A DNA stretch of 64,000 nt. It comes from Halarcobacter ebronensis (GTDB lineage: Bacteria > Campylobacterota > Campylobacteria > Campylobacterales > Arcobacteraceae). Within the stretch, counting starts at the first letter, position 1. Each line of letters opens with the position of its first letter. The stretch covers positions 1,674,001 through 1,738,000 of the forward strand of contig NZ_CP053836.1 in assembly GCF_013201825.1 (NCBI RefSeq), read 5' to 3'. The notes under the pieces were generated by a model. It saw only the letters and a program-made list of their open reading frames with translations, had not been told where the DNA came from and did not search any database. This document shows positions 190 to 35,748 of this stretch, piece after piece. A program made the translations under genes and the position numbers.

Positions 190-2934
190 TTACGCTTTAT
201 ATACTTTACAAGCAACACTATTGACAATACCTTGAGAAATAGCACATGAGCTTTCTGGTAATCCACTTGTCAATCTATTGTAGTGAGGATAATCTGCAGC
301 TTTTTGCCCTAATGAATTAACCATACGACCAGTTGCACCTGAGAATCCAACTATTCCTGGTCTAAGCAACTCTGTTACATGCACAGGCGCTTTAACTTTT
401 CCAAATTTTGATTCACACCAGCATACGTCATTTTCAACTACTCCAAGTTTTCTTGCTGTACTAGTATGTAAAGACATTTTCCCATGTGAAGGGTCAAAAT
501 TTGCAGCTGCTTCTTGTAACCAAGGCATTTGGTCAGCTCCACCACAACGTGTTGGTAAAAATGGTGATTTCCAGTTAACAGAAGTTAAATTGTACTCATC
601 ATCATCACTAATTTTTAATAACTCTTTATTTCTCCATTTGATGATTGGTTCATAATAGTTAAAGTTATCTCTCCAATCCAATCCTGGGAACTTATCAATA
701 GTTTCTGCATGTTCCTCAAAATATTTTCTTTGTTTTTCTCCAGAGATTTTTGTTGTACTCCAATATACAGGGTGTCTTGTTTCACCATCTTTGTACCAGT
801 ATCCGTTATATGCTTCAGCTGGTGCTCTATAAGAAACAATCATTCCATTCTTTTTGAAGTGATCCATCCCAACACCAAAAGATTTTTGAATACCTTTATT
901 CCATAATTCTGTAATTGTATATCTTTTATTTAAATCAAGATATTCTTCTTTATCAAGGTGTGCAGTAGTAACCTCTCCTAAGATAATTCCAACTTTATTA
1001 ATATCAGAGTTAAATTGTTTCATAATACCGATTCTCTCTGCTAATTCCATAACAATATCTTGTGGTTGTCTAGTATTGTAAATTGGTTTAATTGGATCAC
1101 GATACATCATAATTCTTACATTGTTTGTCTCTTTTCCAGAGATATCAAATGCACCTTCAAAACAGTTAACTGACTCTTTTTCAAGTAAAGAGTGAGAGGC
1201 AAAAAGAATATCTGCCATTTGTGCCATTTCATCATAGTGATAAGCAACAACTGCTCCAAATGGTATTTTTTTAATTGTTTCTGTAATCATATAAGGGTCA
1301 GAAGTAGATGAAATTGGGTTACTTCCAATAGTTAAAATTGCTTTAATTTCATACTCAAAACCATATTTTTTAGGTTCAGCGGCAACTCTATAAGCATGCA
1401 CAGGAAGTGTATGTTTATGAGGGAACCAATCCCAAAGGTTAATATGTTCAGGAGGCCATTTCATATTTTCAAGTCTACTATTTTTTGCCTCACCTTTTGG
1501 AGCAACAACACCATCCTCATCTGGTGCCATATGATGAATTCCTCTTGCTTTACCAACAGTTCCACCAGGTAACTCAACTGCTCCAACAATCATTGATAAG
1601 AATTTAGTCATAAGGTCACTTGCAACACCATCTCTTTGGTTTTTAACCCCTCTTTTTGCTTCAATTAAAGAGGTCCTTTTTGGCATTTTTACCATTTCAC
1701 CTTTTGAGTTTTTAAGATATACAAATTCACCAATAGAAGCGTTATTAATATAATCAAATGCAATTTGTCTAATTTTTTCTGCTGGAATTTCGCAAATTTT
1801 TTCAGCCCATTCAGGGGTATATTCTTTAAATGAATCTTTAATTAATGTTAATGCACTTGTTGCTTTTTGTCCATTAACTTCAATGTTTTGAGCCCAAAGA
1901 TCAGGCTCTTTTAATGATTTATCATCAAAAGATTTTACTTTTCCATCAAATTTATCTAATATTTGTGGTTTTCCATCTTTTCCTCTAGCATACAATCCAT
2001 CTTTACCAATTAAATATGGACTTGTAGTTCTCCATTGTAAGAAGTGGAAATCCATTTTTTTAACTTCATAAAAAATAACTTGTGACATTGCAAGCATAAA
2101 TGCAAGATCTCCTCCAGGCTTAATAGGAACCCATTCACCTTTTGATGCTTCTGGTCCACAGTGTGGATCAACAACAAGCATTTTGAAATCTCTATCTTTA
2201 TACATTCTATCAAAAAGGGTTCTAGCCCCACCATCCGCAGAAGCTAAACCTAATCCAAGGTTCATTCCTAATGCAATAAAATATTTTAGATATGTACCAT
2301 CTGGTCCAGAACCAGGGAAAACCCCTTGAACAAGGTCAGAAGCATAGTGTAATGTACATAAAATACCATTTGATTTTACATAGTTTGGTGTTCCAAAAGC
2401 GTGAGCAAAATAGAACTCAAAAGTACAGAAATAATCCATATCACCAAAACCAACTTGATATAACAGACCTCTTGGATCCTCTTTATGTACCTCTTCAAGT
2501 TTTTTAGCTGTTGTACTTAATGCCTCTTCCCAACTGATTTCAACCCATTTTGGGTCAACATCAAGACCTTTTTCTGGATTTGTTCTTTTCATTGGTGCTT
2601 TTACACGATAAGGGTTATATGTATTTTGGATAATAGATTGTCCCTTAGCACAAAGTGCACCTTTTGTTGTTGGGGCTTCAACATTTCCTTGTATCTCTAC
2701 AGCTATACCATTTTCAACCCTATACATATTTGGACAACATCCACGCATACACATTCTACAGTGTCCATAATGCCAACCATCACTGCTAGTATCTTTAATA
2801 TTTTTTTCTGCAGCTTCTAATAGTTGAGTTAACCCAAAATTAGCTCCAACTGTTACAAGAAATCCTGCAATACCAGCATTTTTAAGAAATGATCTTCTCG
2901 ATAATTGTGGCATAATATTTGATTCTATTTCCAT
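190..2934 (-). CDS. Tat-exported molybdopterin oxidoreductase, catalytic subunit (TtrA/PsrA/ArrA-like clade)
   Basis: A 914-residue catalytic subunit of the DMSO-reductase (CISM) superfamily. The N-terminus carries a twin-arginine signal (SRRSFLKNAG, residues 12-21), so the folded enzyme is exported. A [4Fe-4S] site follows as C59-x2-C62-x3-C66 and C95. Cys193 (in NGILCTLHY) is the likely molybdenum ligand by position, which argues against the Asp-ligated nitrate/perchlorate group. An AGGAGGA ribosome site six bases before the ATG fixes the start. Its ferredoxin partner follows after 11 bp, and a membrane anchor is presumably beyond the window. The length lies between PsrA-type and TtrA-type enzymes. 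Candidate substrates are sulfur oxyanions, polysulfide or arsenate, and the sequence does not let me choose. The Tat components TatB and TatC are encoded at 61300-62483. Confidence 0.85.
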   Translation of the reverse strand: MEIESNIMPQLSRRSFLKNAGIAGFLVTVGANFGLTQLLEAAEKNIKDTSSDGWHYGHCRMCMRGCCPNMYRVENGIAVEIQGNVEAPTTKGALCAKGQSIIQNTYNPYRVKAPMKRTNPEKGLDVDPKWVEISWEEALSTTAKKLEEVHKEDPRGLLYQVGFGDMDYFCTFEFYFAHAFGTPNYVKSNGILCTLHYASDLVQGVFPGSGPDGTYLKYFIALGMNLGLGLASADGGARTLFDRMYKDRDFKMLVVDPHCGPEASKGEWVPIKPGGDLAFMLAMSQVIFYEVKKMDFHFLQWRTTSPYLIGKDGLYARGKDGKPQILDKFDGKVKSFDDKSLKEPDLWAQNIEVNGQKATSALTLIKDSFKEYTPEWAEKICEIPAEKIRQIAFDYINNASIGEFVYLKNSKGEMVKMPKRTSLIEAKRGVKNQRDGVASDLMTKFLSMIVGAVELPGGTVGKARGIHHMAPDEDGVVAPKGEAKNSRLENMKWPPEHINLWDWFPHKHTLPVHAYRVAAEPKKYGFEYEIKAILTIGSNPISSTSDPYMITETIKKIPFGAVVAYHYDEMAQMADILFASHSLLEKESVNCFEGAFDISGKETNNVRIMMYRDPIKPIYNTRQPQDIVMELAERIGIMKQFNSDINKVGIILGEVTTAHLDKEEYLDLNKRYTITELWNKGIQKSFGVGMDHFKKNGMIVSYRAPAEAYNGYWYKDGETRHPVYWSTTKISGEKQRKYFEEHAETIDKFPGLDWRDNFNYYEPIIKWRNKELLKISDDDEYNLTSVNWKSPFLPTRCGGADQMPWLQEAAANFDPSHGKMSLHTSTARKLGVVENDVCWCESKFGKVKAPVHVTELLRPGIVGFSGATGRMVNSLGQKAADYPHYNRLTSGLPESSCAISQGIVNSVACKVYKA

Positions 2935-3344: not shown

Positions 3345-5273
3345 ATGAATATAAAAACTAAAAATGAAAGAACCCTTGTAAACATCATAAAATTTGGTGC
3401 AGTTATACCAATTTTACTTTTATCTGTAATATTTACCTACATTTTTATCCAATATAAGAATGAAGAATTAAAAAAAGAGATTGAATCTATTAAAACAAGA
3501 TATATGAATCAAAATAAAAAAAGTGTTCAAGATGAAGTAAATAGAGTTATAAAAACAATAAACTATGAAATTGAAATCAATAATGAAGAATTAAAACAAT
3601 CTTTAAAGAATAGAGTTTATGAAGCATATGCAATAGCTCATACTATCTATAAAGATAATATAAAATATAAAAGTAAAGATGAAGTTTTTCAAATAATAAA
3701 ACAGGCTTTGGTAAATATTAGATTTAATGATGGCAGAGGATACATCTTTATAGATAATATAAATGGAATAAAACTTTTACAACCACTAAATAAAAGTTTT
3801 GAAGGAAGAGACTTTAGTAATTTTGAAGATCCTAAAGGTTATAAGTTTGTTCAAAAAATAATAGAGACAATAAAAGATAAATCTGAATCTTTTGATCAAT
3901 ACTATTGGTACAAATCAAAAGAGGACAAAACAGCCTACGAAAAACTTAGTTTTTATAAATATTTTGAACCTTATAATGTTGCAATTGGAACAGGAGAGTA
4001 TATAGATGAATATACACAAAAACTCCAAAATAGTATTATTGAGAAAATTAAAAGAATTAGATTTGATGACAATGGCTATATTATGGTTTTTGATAGAGAA
4101 GGAAAATACCTATCTCATTTTCAAGAAAACAAAATCGGAATTGACGGATTTGAAGTAAAAGATAAAAATGGAAAATATTTTGTAAAAGATATGGTTAATT
4201 TTGCAAAAATCAATGGAGAGGGTTTCTTCTCTTACATAGCAAGTGCAAAACCAAATGGAGAAAATAAAAATAGAAAGAAAATATCTTTTTTAAAATACTT
4301 TAATGACTGGGGTTGGACTATTGGAGCAGGCTTTTATTTAGAAGAGTTAAATTATGAGATAACCCAAAAACAACAAGAGTTAACACAAAAATATGAACTA
4401 ATAATTAAGAAAATAATATTTATAAGTATTCTTGTAACTATTCTTCTTGTTCTCTTTTCATTCTATATTTCAAAAATTATCTATAATAAATTTAATGAGT
4501 ATAAAAATGAAATAAAAAAAGAGGTTGATAAAACCATAGAGAATGAAAAGATGTTAATACAACAATCTAAAATGGCAATTATGGGAGAGATGATTGGTAG
4601 TGTGGCACATCAACTAAAACAACCTCTAACACTTATTAGCACTTCAAATAGCCTTGTTAAGCTAAATAGAGAGATAGAAAATTTTAGTACACCTGAGCAA
4701 ATTGATGATGCTTTAGAGAATATTGATAGCTCAGTAGTTAATCTTGCAACAACTATTGATAACTTTAAAAACTTCTTCAATCCAAACAAAGTTAAATCAG
4801 TTTTCAAAATAGAGGATCTGTTTAATAAAACTTTCATACTCTTAGACTATCAACTAAAAACAAATAGAATTGAAGTGGTTAAAGAGATAAACAATCTTGA
4901 ATTTTATGGCTATGAAAATGAACTACTTCAAGTATTGATTAATATAATAAAAAATGCTATTGATGTTTTAGTAAAAAAAGATGAAAATAGAATTATATTT
5001 ATTGAAGCTAAATATAAAAATGATGAAATTACAATAAAAGTAAAAGATAATGCTGGGGGTGTCTCAGCTGATATTCTTGATAAACTCTTTTTATCTTACG
5101 TTAAAACTGAAAAAAATGAAGATACAAAAGGTGTTAATCTTTATATGACAAAACAGATTATAAATAGTATCAAAGGGGAAATTTCAGTTTCTAATGTTGA
5201 ATATGAATATAAAGATCAAAAGTGCAAAGGAGCTGAATTTACCATCAAAATACCTTTTCAATCTTCATTATAA
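3345..5273 (+). CDS. Membrane sensor histidine kinase with tandem Cache sensing domain (orphan)
   Basis: A 642-residue inner-membrane sensor. A transmembrane helix lies near residues 16-36, followed by a long helical linker. Two Cache-type segments come next (around GYIFIDNINGIKLLQP and GYIMVFDREGKYLSHF, each ending in a W/Y-rich GxGxY-like strand). A second helix lies near 352-374. The kinase core has His422 in the phospho-acceptor box (GSVAHQLKQPL), an N box (INIIKNAIDVL) and a G1 box (DNAGGV). The G2 box is unusual: it reads TKGVNLYMTK where GTGIGLYMSK is usual, so one conserved Gly is Asn. No response regulator is adjacent. It is divergent from the molybdoenzyme operon and may sense a small organic ligand or a respiratory substrate. 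A terminator follows directly. Confidence 0.85.
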   Translation: MNIKTKNERTLVNIIKFGAVIPILLLSVIFTYIFIQYKNEELKKEIESIKTRYMNQNKKSVQDEVNRVIKTINYEIEINNEELKQSLKNRVYEAYAIAHTIYKDNIKYKSKDEVFQIIKQALVNIRFNDGRGYIFIDNINGIKLLQPLNKSFEGRDFSNFEDPKGYKFVQKIIETIKDKSESFDQYYWYKSKEDKTAYEKLSFYKYFEPYNVAIGTGEYIDEYTQKLQNSIIEKIKRIRFDDNGYIMVFDREGKYLSHFQENKIGIDGFEVKDKNGKYFVKDMVNFAKINGEGFFSYIASAKPNGENKNRKKISFLKYFNDWGWTIGAGFYLEELNYEITQKQQELTQKYELIIKKIIFISILVTILLVLFSFYISKIIYNKFNEYKNEIKKEVDKTIENEKMLIQQSKMAIMGEMIGSVAHQLKQPLTLISTSNSLVKLNREIENFSTPEQIDDALENIDSSVVNLATTIDNFKNFFNPNKVKSVFKIEDLFNKTFILLDYQLKTNRIEVVKEINNLEFYGYENELLQVLINIIKNAIDVLVKKDENRIIFIEAKYKNDEITIKVKDNAGGVSADILDKLFLSYVKTEKNEDTKGVNLYMTKQIINSIKGEISVSNVEYEYKDQKCKGAEFTIKIPFQSSL

Positions 5274-5386: not shown

Positions 5387-5428
5387 TTGATTAAGGTCAA
5401 TGATATAGATTATCAATAATGATATATT
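5387..5428 (+). promoter_or_regulatory. FNR/DNR-type binding site and -10 element of the DUF2249 module promoter
   Basis: TTGATTAAGGTCAA at 5387-5400 fits TTGAT-N4-GTCAA, the box of the CRP/FNR superfamily and especially of DNR/NnrR-type nitric-oxide regulators. A TATATT at 5423-5428 serves as -10. The centre of the box is 32 bases from the centre of the -10, which places the box at -41.5, the standard class II activator position. The predicted start, near 5435, lies just before the AAAGGAG ribosome site at 5440-5446. Box, -10 and ribosome site are all in register, which makes this the best-supported regulatory site in the window. Confidence 0.65.
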
Positions 5429-5451
5429 TACAAAAAATAAAAGGAGCTAAA

Positions 5452-5775
5452 ATGGAAAAAATTGAAGTTATGCACTCAACAGTAGATTTTTATAAAGAGA
5501 TTAAAGATAGTTTAACAATATACCAATTTGATACAAGTATGTGTGGTCCTCCAGAACCAATGGTAAATGCGATGATAGGATTACAACTTCTAGACAAAAA
5601 TTCACAACTAATAATGATAAACCATCAATCTCCAAGTGGTTTATTCCCCAAAATAGAACAAGATTTCAATTTTATAGAAGAGAGAACAAAAGAGGGAAAA
5701 GTAAAAATTACATTTACATTAAAAAATAGTTCTCCTAAATCTACAAATTTTTTAGAAAATTCTTGTAACGGGTAG
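5452..5775 (+). CDS. DUF2249-like small protein, first gene of the FNR/DNR-box module
   Basis: A soluble protein of 107 residues. An upstream in-frame ATG at 5419 exists, but the one at 5452 follows AAAGGAG at the right distance and lies downstream of the predicted transcription start, so it is chosen. The sequence CGPPEPM, then a helix, then LIMINHQSPSGLFPKI resembles DUF2249 proteins, a TusA-like alpha/beta fold often found with NnrS and hemerythrin proteins in denitrification and nitric-oxide clusters. A Cys sits just before PPEPM, and another near the C-terminus. Function is unknown; a role in electron, sulfur or metal handling for the downstream membrane protein is inference. The heme-copper-oxidase-like gene follows after 4 bp. 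Confidence 0.65.
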   Translation: MEKIEVMHSTVDFYKEIKDSLTIYQFDTSMCGPPEPMVNAMIGLQLLDKNSQLIMINHQSPSGLFPKIEQDFNFIEERTKEGKVKITFTLKNSSPKSTNFLENSCNG

Positions 5776-5779
5776 ATAG

Positions 5780-7021
5780 ATGAATATTTCTCAACAGTTT
5801 GCTCCACCTTTTAAATTAGTTATACCTTACTTTTTATTAGGTGTATTTACTTATTTAATCAGCACATTTTTGTTGTTTAAAATTGATATATCGATTTTAC
5901 ATAGCCTAAATAGCAATATAGTGGCATGGATACATCTATTTTTACTCGGATTTGTTATGATTATAATATTTGGAGCAATGGCACAATTGGTTCCTGTTGT
6001 ACTCGAAGTTGGTCATTTTGCTGTTGATTTGTATTATACAATTTATCCTTTACTTTTCATTGGGGCTATATTAATGGCAATGGGCTTTGTTTATTATCCT
6101 TCTTTGTTACCATTTGGAGGAACTATTGCCTTTGTCTCTTTTTCAATATTTCTATTTGAAACATTTTTAACTATTTTAAAAGTAAAAAAAATAAATTTTG
6201 TAATTGTTTCCGTTTTATTAGCAAATATATTTCTATTTTTTGGTCTAATTATTGGAATTATACTTGCTTTAGGTTACAGTGGAACAATTGATATTAATAT
6301 ATACCAGTTTCTAAAAGCCCATATTTACTTAGTATTAGTAGGTTATGTTGGTATAACTATAATGGGAATGAGTCTAATATTATTGCCAATGTTTTGGTTA
6401 AGTCATGGTTTTTCTTGGAAATATATCAAAAGTTCTCTGAGTATATTATCTGTAGGAATTTTATTTGTTGTATTATCTTCTTTCTCAAATATAACTTTTT
6501 TTGAATATTTAGGATATTTTTTTACTCTTATTGCTCTTTTTTTATATTTTTATCAAGTTTTTATAATCTATAAAACTAGAGTTAGACTAGAAAATGACAT
6601 ATATTTCAAAAGTATTATGTTTTCATTTTTATCCTTATTATTATCACTTATTTTAGGAATAATTTACATTTTTTATCCTATAGAAAATATATTTCTTACT
6701 CTCTCTTGGATTCTACTTGGTGGTTTTATTACTTTTATAATAACAGGTCATCTTTATAAAATAATCCCTTTTTTAGTCTGGTATGAGAGATTTTCACCAT
6801 ATGTTGGAAAAAAGAAAATACCAATGTTAGTTGATATAGTTCCTAAAAAAAGTGCAAATATGCAATTTGTTTTTTCAAGTATTGGTGTAATTTTTGTTTC
6901 TTTAGGAATATTAAACATAAATGAAACTATTTATAAAAGTGGGTTAAGTTTTTTATCTATTGGTGCAATTTTTTTGTTAAAAGATATTTTATATATGATA
7001 AGGTTTAAAGAAGATGTATAG
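5780..7021 (+). CDS. 12-TM heme-copper-oxidase-subunit-I-like / NnrS-like membrane protein
   Basis: A 413-residue integral membrane protein with about 12 hydrophobic segments. Histidines occur at helix positions typical of heme or copper ligation: His52 (AWIHLFLLGF), His79 (EVGHF), His181 (KAHIYLVLVGYVG), His209 and His324 (TGHLYKIIPFLVW). The AH-x-n-GYVG and GHLYKIIPFLVW segments recall proteins annotated as cbb3-type subunit I-like or NnrS-like in nitric-oxide-related clusters. The full ligand set of a proton-pumping oxidase is not evident, so I do not call it an oxidase. It overlaps the DUF59 gene by 8 bp, and the two are probably translationally coupled. The role is inferred to be heme/copper or nitrogen-oxide related. 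Confidence 0.6.
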   Translation: MNISQQFAPPFKLVIPYFLLGVFTYLISTFLLFKIDISILHSLNSNIVAWIHLFLLGFVMIIIFGAMAQLVPVVLEVGHFAVDLYYTIYPLLFIGAILMAMGFVYYPSLLPFGGTIAFVSFSIFLFETFLTILKVKKINFVIVSVLLANIFLFFGLIIGIILALGYSGTIDINIYQFLKAHIYLVLVGYVGITIMGMSLILLPMFWLSHGFSWKYIKSSLSILSVGILFVVLSSFSNITFFEYLGYFFTLIALFLYFYQVFIIYKTRVRLENDIYFKSIMFSFLSLLLSLILGIIYIFYPIENIFLTLSWILLGGFITFIITGHLYKIIPFLVWYERFSPYVGKKKIPMLVDIVPKKSANMQFVFSSIGVIFVSLGILNINETIYKSGLSFLSIGAIFLLKDILYMIRFKEDV

Positions 7022-7316
7022 TAAAGATGATATTTTAAAAGCTGTATCAACAGTTATTGATCCAGAAGTAGGTTTCAATCTTGTAGAGATGGGACTTATT
7101 TATGATGCTATATGTAATGAAAATATGGAAGTTACAGTTACTATGACACTTAGTACAAAAGCTTGTCCATTACATCAAATGATTGTCCAATGGGTTGAAG
7201 AAGCAGTATTAAGAGAGTTACCCAAAGTAAGACTAACAAAAGTTGATCTAGTTTGGGAGCCTGTTTGGAATATAAGTATGGCAACAGAAGAAGTAAAAGC
7301 AAGATTAGCAGGTTAA
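7014..7316 (+). CDS. DUF59/MIP18-family iron-sulfur assembly protein (SufT/PaaD-like)
   Basis: A 100-residue cytosolic protein. It has the family signature DPEVGFNLVEMGLIYD near residues 17-32 and a conserved TKACPLHQMI segment with the single Cys used by this family. Relatives (SufT, PaaD, eukaryotic MIP18) help mature Fe-S proteins. It overlaps the upstream membrane-protein gene by 8 bp and is followed within 3 bp by the HPP gene. The placement suggests it matures a metal centre linked to this module. A target protein is not identified. Confidence 0.8.
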   Translation: MYSKDDILKAVSTVIDPEVGFNLVEMGLIYDAICNENMEVTVTMTLSTKACPLHQMIVQWVEEAVLRELPKVRLTKVDLVWEPVWNISMATEEVKARLAG

Positions 7317-7318
7317 AG

Positions 7319-7867
7319 TTGAAAAATTTTTTTAAACAATTTAAAAAAGTAAACACCGAACCCCTTGAGCGCTCAAATATAATATGGTCATGGATAGGTT
7401 CCTTTATAGGTATTATGAGCATAGCCATATTTCATAGAGGTGTGTTGGGAGATGAAGATTTAAGTTTAGTCATAGGTTCTTTTGGAGCCAGTGCAGTTTT
7501 AGTTTATGGGGCTATTCATTCTCCCTTGGCACAACCAAGAAATCTTATAGGAGGACATCTATTATCTGCATTAGTGGGTGTAATATCCTATAAACTTTTT
7601 TTTGGAAATCTTCTTTTATGCTCAGCTTTTGCCGTTGCAACTTCTATTTTGGTTATGCAATTAACATTAACACTACATCCACCAGGAGGAGCAACTGCAT
7701 TAATTGCTGTTTTAGGTAGTGAACATATTCATAATCTTGGTTTTATTTATGTTTTATATCCCGTTTTTACAGGATCTTTAATCTTATTGGTTATTGCATT
7801 AATAGTTAATAATATTCCAAAACATAGAGCTTATCCAGATAGAACATTAAAAAGAAAAAAGGAGTAA
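7319..7867 (+). CDS. HPP-family membrane protein
   Basis: About 182 residues with four to five membrane helices. The diagnostic TLHPPGGATALIAV motif lies near the middle. The frame is open further upstream to an ATG at 7253 inside the DUF59 gene. A TTG at 7319, 3 bp after the DUF59 stop, gives a protein starting near KNFFKQFKKV and is the more economical choice, with moderate confidence. Some HPP proteins have been linked to nitrite transport in plastids and cyanobacteria, which would agree with the FNR/DNR box upstream. Transport of nitrite here is inference. Confidence 0.7.
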   Translation: MKNFFKQFKKVNTEPLERSNIIWSWIGSFIGIMSIAIFHRGVLGDEDLSLVIGSFGASAVLVYGAIHSPLAQPRNLIGGHLLSALVGVISYKLFFGNLLLCSAFAVATSILVMQLTLTLHPPGGATALIAVLGSEHIHNLGFIYVLYPVFTGSLILLVIALIVNNIPKHRAYPDRTLKRKKE

Positions 7868-7872
7868 CAACT

Positions 7873-8292
7873 TTGACATATCTAGTTATAAAACTATTAC
7901 ATATCTTCTCAGTACTAATTTATGGTGGCTTTCTATTTACTGATAATCTTATATTAATGAGAATGCAAAAAACACTCTCAAAAGAAAAATATGAAGAGGT
8001 AAGAGCTTACTTTAAAGATTTTACAAAAGTATTAGTTCCTAAAGCTTTAGTTATAGCTGTAGTTAGTGGAATAGTTCTATTTTATTATAGCTTTGGAACC
8101 ATTGGGGAAAATGGATTTTCAAATTTTCAAATTCTATTATCAATAAAGGCTATCTTAGGTCTATGGTTAGGAGCAAGAGGCGTATTACAAGTGTTTTTTG
8201 GAATACAACCTTTTATATTCAAAAGTCATAGACTCCCTTTTATATTAGTTATTTGTATTGTATTTTTATCACAAACTATGTATTACATTTGA
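7873..8292 (+). CDS. CopD-like / conserved four-TM membrane protein
   Basis: A 139-residue protein starting at TTG, supported by AAGGAG 10 bases upstream. It has four predicted helices, with histidines in the first helix (KLLHIFSVLIYGGFLF) and near the last loop (KSHRLPF). The layout resembles small CopD/DUF2269-type integral membrane proteins, some of which bind heme or copper. It is the last gene of the module and is followed by a strong terminator. The assignment to CopD is tentative. Confidence 0.5.
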   Translation: MTYLVIKLLHIFSVLIYGGFLFTDNLILMRMQKTLSKEKYEEVRAYFKDFTKVLVPKALVIAVVSGIVLFYYSFGTIGENGFSNFQILLSIKAILGLWLGARGVLQVFFGIQPFIFKSHRLPFILVICIVFLSQTMYYI

Positions 8293-8306: not shown

Positions 8307-8345
8307 ATATATTAGAACTTCTTTTTAAAGAAGTTTCTAATATTT
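8307..8345. terminator. Bidirectional terminator between convergent genes
   Basis: The left arm ATATTAGAACTTCTTT pairs with AAAGAAGTTTCTAATAT with one bulged base, giving a stem of about 16 bp. A-rich sequence lies before it and T-rich sequence after it, so it can end both the plus-strand module and the minus-strand aldo/keto reductase gene. Confidence 0.75.
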
Positions 8346-8348
8346 TAA

Positions 8349-9368
8349 TCATCCCATAGGATAAAGAATCTCTTTTTGTACCTGTTCAATTCTCTCTAAA
8401 AGTTCACTATCAAGATTAAAATCTAAAGCAGCTAAAGATTCATCCAGTTGAGCTAATTTTCTAGCTCCAATAATAGTTGAAGCTACAAAATCAAAATGTT
8501 TTGAATATGCAACAGCTAAAGTAACAGGTGAGATTCCATACTCTTTTGCTATTGCAATATATCTGTTTGTTGCTTCAATAGTTTTCTCATTTACAAATCT
8601 TTTTGCTTGAGCTTGTACTCTAGGATTTTGATGTTTTGCATAGGCTGTAAATCTACAACCTTCTGGGAAAAATCCACCATTATATTTACCAGATAAAACT
8701 CCTCCACCAATTGGAGAGTATGGAAGAAGTGAAATATTTTCTCTTTTACATACATTTGCCAACTCATCATGGAATCTTGGGTTTAAAAGAGAGAAGTTAT
8801 TTTGAATAGATTCAAATCTTGCTAAATTTTTATGTTTAGATACTTCATTTGCTTTTGTAAGTCCATAGGCACTATCATTTGAAGTTCCTATATATCTCAC
8901 TTTTCCCTCACGTACCAACTCATCGAAAGCTTTTAAACTCTCTTCAATTGGAACAATAGTATCAGGCCAATGCATTTGATATAAATCAATATAATCAGTA
9001 TCAAGTCTTTTTAGACTTCCTTCAACTGCTCTTTTAATATGAAAAGAGTCAATTGCAGTCAAACCGTGTCTTGTAGGAGGAACAAACCAACCAGAAGCAG
9101 CACCAGCTATTTTTGTTGCCAAAATTATTGATTCTCTAGGTTTGCTTTTTAACCACTCTCCAACAATTTTTTCTGTTGTACCTTCGTAAGAAGCTTTTGG
9201 AGGAACAGGATAAATCTCAGCTGTATCAAAAAAATTTATTCCTCTATCATAAGCTTTATCCATAATTTGGAAGGCTTCACTTTTATCAGTACTACTTCCA
9301 AAGGTCATAGTTCCCAAACAAATGGGAGTAACTCTTAATCCACTTTTACCTATATAGTTATAATTCAT
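8349..9368 (-). CDS. Aldo/keto reductase (Tas/YajO-like)
   Basis: A 339-residue cytosolic NADPH-dependent oxidoreductase with a TIM-barrel fold. The catalytic set is visible: Asp and Tyr in FFDTAEIYP, Lys in ILATKIAG and His in YQMHWPD. The C-terminal cofactor region includes STIIGARKLAQLDE. An AAAGGTG ribosome site precedes the ATG. It is monocistronic, ending at the bidirectional terminator. The substrate is unknown; relatives reduce a range of aldehydes. Confidence 0.9.
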   Translation of the reverse strand: MNYNYIGKSGLRVTPICLGTMTFGSSTDKSEAFQIMDKAYDRGINFFDTAEIYPVPPKASYEGTTEKIVGEWLKSKPRESIILATKIAGAASGWFVPPTRHGLTAIDSFHIKRAVEGSLKRLDTDYIDLYQMHWPDTIVPIEESLKAFDELVREGKVRYIGTSNDSAYGLTKANEVSKHKNLARFESIQNNFSLLNPRFHDELANVCKRENISLLPYSPIGGGVLSGKYNGGFFPEGCRFTAYAKHQNPRVQAQAKRFVNEKTIEATNRYIAIAKEYGISPVTLAVAYSKHFDFVASTIIGARKLAQLDESLAALDFNLDSELLERIEQVQKEILYPMG

Positions 9369-34533: not shown

Positions 34534-35244
34534 TTAGATATGACAACTCAAAATTGATTTAGTAGGGTCTGTTAAATAAGTATAACCATTATGCATTATA
34601 TAAACTCCAAAGAGTATAACTAATATAGCTGCTATAGTAATAAACAGATTTCTAAGGGCAATTTGTTTAAAAATACCAACAAAAAAACCAAGTGAAAACA
34701 TTGCAGGAAGAGTGCTGAGTCCAAAAATCAACATTACAAATGCACCCCAAAGTGGGCTTCCTGTACTAGCAGCAGTTATAGCAAAAACATATACAAAACC
34801 ACAGGGGAGAAGACCATTTAACATTCCTAAAAGATAAAAACTCAAAAGTGTATTTGAACCTATTAATGATCTAAATGTTTTTTGATATAAATTTGATTTT
34901 GAAACAGAGTACTCCAAAGAGGTAAGAAACTTTAACTTTCCACTAAGAGATAAACCTACAAGAATCATTAGAAAACCTGTAATTAAAAGTAAAATACCAC
35001 TTGTCGTATTATCAAAAGTAACAACGCCACCAACAAAACCAAAAATAAACCCTAAAATCACATAAGTTGTAATTCTTCCAAAAGAGTACAAAACATGAGA
35101 TAAAGCTTGTTTTGCTTTTGACCAACCATTATCTATTTTTGTGCTAGAGTAAGCTATTACTATTCCTCCACACATTCCAATACAGTGACCAAAAGAGCCT
35201 AAAAAAGCTATTGATATAATTGTGATAATACTTATACTTTCCAT
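34534..35244 (-). CDS. SafE/UreH-like membrane protein, probable copper delivery for respiratory oxidases
   Basis: A 236-residue membrane protein with six to seven helices. It contains GHCIGMCGG (Cys in the first helix) and NGLLPCGFVYVF, the paired Cys-Pro-Cys-like features of the sulfite exporter TauE/SafE / DsbD-like group commonly found beside cbb3 oxidase assembly genes in this phylum. The C-terminal residues include a further Cys-His. It directly follows the NosL-like gene, so a shared role in copper handling is likely. Confidence 0.7.
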   Translation of the reverse strand: MESISIITIISIAFLGSFGHCIGMCGGIVIAYSSTKIDNGWSKAKQALSHVLYSFGRITTYVILGFIFGFVGGVVTFDNTTSGILLLITGFLMILVGLSLSGKLKFLTSLEYSVSKSNLYQKTFRSLIGSNTLLSFYLLGMLNGLLPCGFVYVFAITAASTGSPLWGAFVMLIFGLSTLPAMFSLGFFVGIFKQIALRNLFITIAAILVILFGVYIMHNGYTYLTDPTKSILSCHI

Positions 35245-35748
35245 CTATTCACTTAATAATTTTTTTCTTAATAGTGGGTTTGTTAAATTCTCTCCCCTAT
35301 ACATTCTAAGAAGCATCTCATTAAAATCTATCATATTTTCACCCTTCTTTTCATATGCTCCAAATCCATATCCCATAGGAGTTTTATCCACTATATTATA
35401 GTGTGCAACTCTTCCATCAATATATTGATTTGTATCATTTGTATATACCCATATTACAGCATCTTTTTGAAATGCAATATTTTTAAACCATAATGCAAAA
35501 CAACCCACATCATCAAAAAACCAAGTTTTTCCATCAGGAGAAACAACTTGAACAGAGTGTCGTAAACTCTCTATTGTCATACCACACTGCGTATCTTGAA
35601 AATGATTTAGTGTTATATCAAGAGGTTTATGTTCATGATTTCCTTCTTGAATAGTCACCATCTTTTTTTGGCTGGACATTGATAAAAAAATAAAAACTAT
35701 AATTAAAACTAACACAAACACTGTAATAAATGGCATCAACTTTTTCAT
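35245..35748 (-). CDS. NosL-like periplasmic copper protein
   Basis: A 167-residue protein with one N-terminal membrane anchor (residues 5-24) and a periplasmic domain. TQCGMTIESLRHSVQV and TWFFDDVGCFALWFK match the NosL/CGM copper-binding pattern, in which NosL delivers Cu(I) to N2O reductase. It ends at the start of the SafE-like gene with no spacer. No nosZ is seen here, so the copper client could be N2O reductase or a cbb3 oxidase. Confidence 0.65.
   Translation of the reverse strand: MKKLMPFITVFVLVLIIVFIFLSMSSQKKMVTIQEGNHEHKPLDITLNHFQDTQCGMTIESLRHSVQVVSPDGKTWFFDDVGCFALWFKNIAFQKDAVIWVYTNDTNQYIDGRVAHYNIVDKTPMGYGFGAYEKKGENMIDFNEMLLRMYRGENLTNPLLRKKLLSE

Follow-up and report, generated by a model that had tools for sequence, protein, structure and literature searches.

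A conserved DUF2249–12-TM–DUF59 gene trio behind an Nss/Dnr-type promoter box in Halarcobacter ebronensis and other Campylobacterota

The window analyzed here is a stretch of 64,000 nucleotides (nt) of the Halarcobacter ebronensis genome, corresponding to positions 1674001-1738000 of a single contig of 3.17 Mb. Near its beginning, five genes on the forward strand follow a sensor kinase gene that ends at 5273 and are themselves followed by a convergent aldo/keto reductase gene. The five encode a DUF2249 protein (5452-5775; 107 amino acids (aa), with a start codon chosen by us within the longest open reading frame (ORF), which begins at 5419), a protein of 12 transmembrane helices (12-TM protein; 5780-7021; 413 aa) for which a structural model and structure searches indicate a haem-copper-oxidase fold, a DUF59 protein of the metal-sulfur cluster assembly factor kind (7014-7316; 100 aa; PF01883), and two accessory membrane proteins, one of the HPP family (7319-7867; PF04982; inferred TTG start, longest ORF from 7253) and one small 4-TM protein (7873-8292; 139 aa; TTG start). 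The intergenic gaps are 4, -8, 2 and 5 nt. Ahead of the genes, also on the forward strand, stands an exact TTGA-N6-TCAA box of the Nss/Dnr type, TTGATTAAGGTCAA (5387-5400), followed by the -10 element TATATT (5423-5428), which begins 29.5 bases from the box centre. With a transcription start assumed 7 nt after TATATT, the box is centred at exactly -41.5, so that the arrangement of five tightly packed genes behind a TTGAT-N4-GTCAA box, as given in a preliminary description of this DNA, is confirmed in its coordinates and its offset. An A+T-rich palindromic hairpin at about 8309-8343 (RNA folding energy -12.5 kcal/mol, z -3.9) sits between the convergent genes, ends the five-gene unit and is a probable terminator; it was found by folding and missed by a terminator scan that required at least three G-C pairs.

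The five genes had been taken for one module. Their grouping is conserved, but only for the first three. Among 105 non-redundant loci with a homologue of the 12-TM gene, a DUF2249 gene lies directly upstream in 97 and a DUF59 gene directly downstream in 89, with both in place at 84. Counting genes that follow in the same direction with gaps of at most 120 nt, the 97 DUF2249 loci contain DUF59 in 84 cases, the 4-TM protein in eight, an FmdE-like protein in eight and HPP in three. The conserved unit is thus the trio DUF2249–12-TM–DUF59, and the HPP and 4-TM genes are occasional extras. A few of the 105 loci are probably paralogues, for example two rows with Ala76 and two with Met324, and the longest-ORF rule can miss genes opposite a longer false ORF, by which the clade-A copy of locus L048 was apparently lost. 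A 12-TM homologue, paralogues included, is encoded in 42 of 60 relatives, and the homologues come mostly from Arcobacter, Sulfurimonas and other Campylobacterota; a few of 80 come from elsewhere, one of them from Methylomirabilis. Arcobacter caeni RW17-10 is one of the strains with the 12-TM gene. The trio also occurs on an Aliarcobacter butzleri plasmid (L192, 11667-13540), between transposase and recombinase genes, with a 12-TM protein 74% identical to the one described here and an exact box 65 bases ahead of the first gene; the trio is thus capable of horizontal movement. In another genome (G021:C6:41054-42283; loci L015 and L040), an in-frame TAG interrupts the 12-TM gene, and the adjacent DUF2249 and DUF59 ORFs are open.

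The promoter is the strongest evidence for the module, with a layout that resembles class II promoters in sequence. Within the window, TTGATTAAGGTCAA is the sole exact match to TTGATNNNNGTCAA; when one mismatch is allowed, there are 6 matches against 10 expected. A single box alone is within chance expectation, and it is the comparison of homologous operons that settles that the box is real. Our scan covered 200 nt upstream plus 60 nt within the longest ORF. An exact TTGAYNNNNRTCAA occurs ahead of 75 of 93 homologous operons, whereas the reversed pattern occurs ahead of none of the 93; other genes from the same loci have the box in 119 of 1610 cases. In 74 of the 75 boxed promoters, a hexamer that matches TATAAT at no fewer than 4 of 6 positions begins 29 bases past the box midpoint, whereas such hexamers are present at other offsets in about 13% on average. 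A second TTGAYNNNNRTCAA site in the window, at 8976-8989, is a one-mismatch match within the aldo/keto reductase gene and was not taken as regulatory.

The same promoter architecture recurs elsewhere in the H. ebronensis genome, which contains 36 exact boxes compared to 14 for the reversed pattern. We inspected the neighbors of all 36; 26 boxes are within called ORFs and 10 outside. Eight of these 10 intergenic boxes have a -10 element, again with four or more of six positions matched, 29 bases away (30 in the case of a cytochrome gene), and they precede the trio module, napA, a NapC/NrfH-type cytochrome gene followed by a multihaem cytochrome gene, a nosY-like gene followed by nosL, and the genes for NnrS, a hemerythrin (just under cut-off), the small subunit of a [NiFe] hydrogenase and a 220-aa Crp-type regulator. 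The two remaining intergenic boxes (L164, L178) have no such -10 element at 29-30 bases as scored. A ninth box, upstream of the gene for Hcp, also has a -10 element at 29 bases; it shares 7 bases with the start, as called, of a divergent ORF. Both NosZ and NapA are encoded in the genome. As a separate observation, the NapC/NrfH-type cytochrome gene (L182, 5052-6975) is followed by a gene for a 450-aa multihaem protein of partial hydrazine-dehydrogenase-like similarity, possibly the nitrite-reducing enzyme of this strain.

In 16 of the 93 homologous loci, the gene immediately upstream codes for a Crp-type regulator; 36 such genes are present among 2005. Helices of the ETLSR type would be expected to recognize TTGA half-sites, as those of the FNR/DNR group do. 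H. ebronensis encodes three HTH_Crp_2 proteins. Two have an ETLSR helix and lack an N-terminal cysteine cluster, as do the Crp-type regulators that adjoin the trio elsewhere; the third has two N-terminal cysteines and lacks the ETLSR helix. None of the three HTH_Crp_2 matches possesses an FNR-type N-terminal cysteine cluster (other Crp models were not searched). According to passages of a review, Campylobacterota have no FNR orthologues, A. butzleri lacks a Crp/FNR homologue, and NssA, NssB and NssC of Wolinella serve nitrate, nitric oxide (NO) and nitrous oxide (N2O) (PMC6682613). Based on the lack of FNR orthologues stated there and on ETLSR regulators without a cysteine cluster, FNR is disfavored and an Nss/Dnr-like regulator is likelier. 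The box in H. ebronensis is of the same TTGA-N6-TCAA kind that, in the relevant part of a study on Nitrosophilus labii, was used as the consensus for Nss/Dnr-type regulators, with exact boxes whose first base stands 49, 48 and 48 bases ahead of the napA, norE and nosB starts (PMC11539149). At L173 (G000:C1:2206965-2208621), the Crp-type regulator gene beside napA is followed by a membrane protein gene whose product has a PilJ N-terminal domain (PF13675) and contains NIAGKQRMLTQRI, with similar pairings in L034, L040 and L057. We take NIAGKQRMLTQRI in this PilJ protein to resemble the nitrate-binding P-box of the NarX type.

The preliminary description called the 12-TM protein heme-copper-oxidase-like and suggested a structure search. 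Its 413-aa sequence matches no Pfam family above cut-off. The AlphaFold2 model (pLDDT 92.5, pTM 0.92) superimposes onto solved structures of CcoN (Z 35.2, root-mean-square deviation 3.2, 388 residues aligned) and of cNOR (Z 34.0), and a Foldseek search of the model gave a match at E 2e-6. By this modeled structure the protein has the haem-copper oxidase fold, and most of the haem and copper ligands are missing. A comparison of the 12-TM profile with CcoN indicated a shifted repeat order, in which profile positions 15-107 pair with CcoN 300-396 (i-Evalue 2e-7). H52 pairs with the second histidine of the CcoN motif GHVH, and H181 pairs weakly with the histidine of TM2; these two CcoN residues are the ligands of the low-spin haem b. 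H52 and H181 are thus a putative low-spin haem b pair. H52 is retained in 104 of 105 sequences and H181 in 103, with gaps in the rest; both are also present in 15 of 15 divergent paralogues and in homologues from Thermus and haloarchaea. The protein had also been described as His-rich, which it is not (6 histidines in 413 residues), although four are conserved: positions 52, 181, 209 and 324 are the only invariant histidines in a 31-row alignment (29 independent loci, since two were entered twice). The residue two before H52, which corresponds to the other histidine of GHVH, is never a histidine in the alignment. The interrupted 12-TM copy of L040 was left out of this alignment (A1) and of alignment A2, and only the divergent copy of L048 is present in A2.

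E76, H209 and H324 appear to form a second conserved set of residues, whose mutual proximity is putative. Each is kept in 102 of 105 sequences, and all are absent from 15 of 15 divergent paralogues. The Thermus homologue keeps E76 and H209 and has Met at 324, and the haloarchaeal homologue lacks all three. Among the proteins compared, the clade marker is therefore H324 and not the whole set. The loops of the 12-TM protein carry 10 Lys/Arg residues on one side and none on the other, which places the N terminus and the ends bearing E76 and H209 inside and H52 and H181 near the outside; the depth of H324 in the membrane is inferred from the repeat register. The divergent Campylobacterota paralogues differ from the trio also in context, with a hemerythrin gene nearby in 13 of 15 and, in the rows shown, no DUF59 gene immediately after the 12-TM gene. 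A second 12-TM family (L038, L056-L070), which has a hemerythrin gene close by in 13 loci and a short DUF2249 gene in six, has Met for H324 in 14 of 15 members and a different invariant histidine where residue 336 aligns.

Of the family labels proposed earlier for the partner proteins, DUF59 and HPP score above the Pfam cut-offs, and DUF2249 and "CopD-like" fall under them. The DUF2249 protein scores 17.1 bits against PF10006 (cut-off 29.5) over profile positions 2-68 of 70, and we assume that COG4309 is the same family. Its AlphaFold2 model (pLDDT 89.6) consists of a small alpha/beta domain and a flexible tail. The best structural neighbors are a YeeE-YeeD entry (Z 8.5), a SirA-like protein (7.5) and TusA (7.0), with the unrelated Tdp2 also at 7.0, a Foldseek search gave no significant PDB match for the model, and a Thermus DUF2249 protein matches TusA under the cut-off. 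The fold is thus probably TusA-like, with modest Z values and Tdp2 tied. A cysteine is present in the last nine residues of 91 of 97 DUF2249 sequences (Cys105 in H. ebronensis), and the other six all end in histidine. This exchange of Cys for His may point to metal binding, although the six His cases may reflect a single event. The DUF59 protein matches PF01883 (FeS_assembly_P; 51.3 bits, cut-off 23.5, 1.5e-13), and its Cys51 is invariant (89/89), in agreement with the Fe-S or metal assembly neighbors suggested before. The HPP protein matches PF04982 (TM_HPP) with 197.1 bits (cut-off 27.2, 1.6e-58). By analogy to HPP proteins that, in the parts of two papers drawn on here, transport nitrite in plants (AtNITR2;1) and in cyanobacteria (PMC4137279, PMC7438415), it is a candidate nitrite transporter. 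The 139-aa 4-TM protein has weak similarity to DUF2269 and UPF0093, under the Pfam cut-off, and no match to CopD.

The survey of gene neighborhoods suggested in the preliminary description bore out both the recurrence of the trio across Campylobacterota and its linkage to nitrogen-oxide genes. At loci L033, L035, L037 and L045, norB and other nor-type genes are near the trio, and nos-type genes are upstream of it at L032, L035 and L037; norB is backed by a PDB match and norQ by a Pfam-type search, whereas norC, norD and norE were named by eye. Among the 80 named loci, nor genes are shown in two (L117 and L141, whose contigs are, judged by length, those of L045 and L035), a NapA-like label appears in seven, and most have neither. 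These labels are the best phmmer matches among our own queries, so that NosF denotes any similar ATP-binding cassette ATPase and the NapA label also fell on a gene of the window (190-2934) that is not NapA. In a set of 149 genomes from the order, the 12-TM clade is present in 77 and cNOR in 56, with both in 53, the 12-TM gene only in 24, cNOR only in three and neither in 69. Carriage of the 12-TM gene follows cNOR, which is found in 53 of 77 carriers and 3 of 72 non-carriers. The 77 carriers are 80 minus three genomes with matches of paralogue strength only (G029, G040, G052), and the query used for NorB matches cNOR in the PDB (E 7e-202), which confirms it. For NapA (E <=1e-200), the corresponding numbers are 69, 8, 43 and 29. 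Among 60 relatives, the 12-TM gene occurs with any of NorB, NirS (threshold set by hand at E <=1e-40) or NosZ in 28, alone in six, the others alone in four, and neither in 22. The role of the trio is probably not confined to cNOR, because carriers without cNOR exist.

Proteins of this kind and their link to denitrification are already known. Pei, Li, Kinch and Grishin reportedly described haem-copper oxidase homology (HCOH) proteins in 2014, which are said to have 12 TM helices, the oxidase fold and two conserved histidines, and to occur in contexts of denitrification and NO detoxification. Compared to HCOH proteins, the trio with DUF59, the promoter and the set E76/H209/H324 are described here. 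In the literature that we searched, we found no earlier description of the trio, its near-invariant promoter layout or the additional conserved residues. Outside Campylobacterota, homologues occur on plasmids: of 124 plasmid records with one, 18 are from Thermus and most of the others rhizobial. In two Thermus thermophilus strains, a gene for a major facilitator superfamily transporter comes after narGHJI. Next are two DUF2249 genes, with products of 72 aa and 273 aa, and then genes for a small protein and a protoglobin, the gene for the 12-TM homologue and, last, DUF59; a third Thermus strain has the same six genes and no nar gene within the 12 kb shown. The region shares with the trio the DUF2249 genes, the 12-TM homologue with H52, H181, E76 and H209, and DUF59, here downstream of nar, and it differs by the protoglobin, another additional protein and Met in place of H324. 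The 72-aa and 273-aa genes fit drpA and drpB of strain NAR1 by size and place, as judged from part of a paper that treats drpAB as bicistronic (PMC6282519). The DrpA-sized Thermus protein is only 13% identical to the H. ebronensis DUF2249 protein in an alignment, and the trio contains no DrpB-like gene. A haloarchaeal plasmid has a 12-TM homologue near three DUF2249 genes and nirK. In excerpts of a haloarchaeal transcriptome study, four DUF2249 genes were differentially activated under denitrification, and an association of DUF2249 with the haem-copper oxidase superfamily is cited (PMC11218638).

It is very probable, based on the promoter comparisons, that the operon belongs to a nitrogen-oxide regulon of the Nss/Dnr type. 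We consider the best joint explanation, which has about an even chance of being correct, to be a nitrogen-oxide-responsive operon whose trio protects or maintains metal enzymes. A Crp-type Nss/Dnr regulator would switch the operon on with nitrate, nitrite or NO in the absence of oxygen. The 12-TM protein would bind one low-spin haem b near the periplasmic face through H52 and H181, with the TusA-like DUF2249 and SufT-like DUF59 proteins working at its cytoplasmic side, and the trio would keep metal or Fe-S enzymes functional under NO or nitrite, in parallel to the role proposed for NnrS; HPP, if present, would move nitrite. Like the 12-TM protein, NnrS (PF05940) is a membrane protein of nitrogen-oxide regulons, and in this genome a true NnrS gene shares the box and the -10 offset. 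The 12-TM protein was ruled out as an NnrS member: it has no PF05940 match, for which the genome's NnrS scores 137.6 bits as a positive control, and the hhalign probability between the two is 1.4. The mechanistic part, protection or upkeep of metal centers in nitrogen-oxide respiration, is tentative and somewhat less than evenly probable. Several points weigh against the explanation as a whole. The protective role rests on analogy. The exact box is absent from 18 of the 93 homologous promoters, and most of the 80 named neighborhoods show no nor gene, some of them through contig ends. The 24 carriers without cNOR include this genome, in which neither cNOR nor cd1 nitrite reductase was matched (NirK, NrfA and qNOR were not searched), and four of the 77 carriers lack both NapA and cNOR, three of these being less than 90% complete. 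Three genomes have cNOR and no 12-TM gene. The genomes are related by descent, so that p-values for these associations overstate independence. As to the haem ligands, the pairing of profile 145-299, which includes H181, with CcoN 10-174 is not significant alone (i-Evalue 11; 1.8 and 1.4 with other chains).

Other explanations place the trio differently in nitrogen-oxide metabolism. It could be a nitrate or NO sensor like DrpA/DrpB, in which the haem of the 12-TM protein senses NO or redox state and the DUF2249 and DUF59 proteins relay the signal to regulators. The Thermus cluster of drpA/drpB-like genes, 12-TM homologue and DUF59 downstream of narGHJI in two strains is in keeping with this, as is the Crp-type regulator that adjoins the trio in 16 of 93 loci. 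However, low-spin haem with two His ligands is ill suited to gas sensing, and the DrpA-sized Thermus protein lacks the C-terminal Cys tail in addition to its low sequence identity. According to a portion of the Thermus paper, loss of both Drp proteins led to nitrate-independent expression of dnr and nar, but the double mutants had little nitrate reductase activity despite normal enzyme production, which fits upkeep equally well (PMC6282519). We regard a sensor as rather unlikely. Assembly of NO reductase alone, by insertion of the non-haem FeB, would account for the 53 of 56 cNOR genomes that carry the 12-TM gene and for the several loci at which the trio adjoins nor genes, and COG4309 is probably co-transcribed with nor genes according to part of an earlier study (PMC1274295). 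The 24 of 77 carriers without a cNOR match, with H. ebronensis among them, make so narrow a role distinctly improbable.

A general low-oxygen module, responsive to oxygen and independent of nitrogen oxides, is about as improbable or slightly more so. Anaerobiosis overlaps with nitrogen-oxide respiration and the same box stands ahead of the hydrogenase small subunit gene, but most of the other genes behind an intergenic box and -10 element handle nitrate, nitrite, N2O or nitrosative stress, and both candidate regulators lack the FNR-type cysteine cluster. The fold match to CcoN and cNOR could suggest terminal oxidase or NO reductase activity for the 12-TM protein itself. Catalytic subunits of these enzymes share the fold with it and differ in the high-spin haem and CuB/FeB ligand set, which it does not conserve: with four invariant His columns and no histidine two before H52, the proximal histidine of a high-spin haem plus three CuB/FeB histidines are not there, and we ruled out this extremely improbable candidate. 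A more elaborate and unlikely version of the mechanism treats the 12-TM protein as a haem protein turned into a metal- or NO-handling relay, in which the periplasm-side haem b (H52/H181) would be coupled to a further metal site on the cytoplasmic side (E76, H209, H324), and the flexible C-terminal Cys (or His) of DUF2249 would serve as a mobile ligand between this site and Cys51 of DUF59. If true, the relay would be a membrane machine for redox or metal repair that serves nitrogen-oxide respiration and differs from NnrS, Hcp and Nor.

The 12-TM gene is present in about half of the genomes sampled from the order (77/149), and at the loci whose neighborhoods were read it usually stands in an uncharacterized trio with a conserved promoter. 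DUF2249 proteins and oxidase-fold proteins thereby gain a shared, regulated and testable context, and the Thermus drp region is tied to a wider set of loci. The trio points to a missing component of NO and nitrite handling in N2O-reducing and denitrifying bacteria.

Elsewhere in the window, the gene that received the NapA label (190-2934, reverse strand) encodes a molybdopterin oxidoreductase of 914 aa, which models of PhsA, ArrA and DmsA match partially, all far under the cut-off. A gene for a DsbD_2-type membrane protein (34537-35748, reverse strand) adjoins one for a 167-aa protein that has no Pfam match and is NosL-like by eye.

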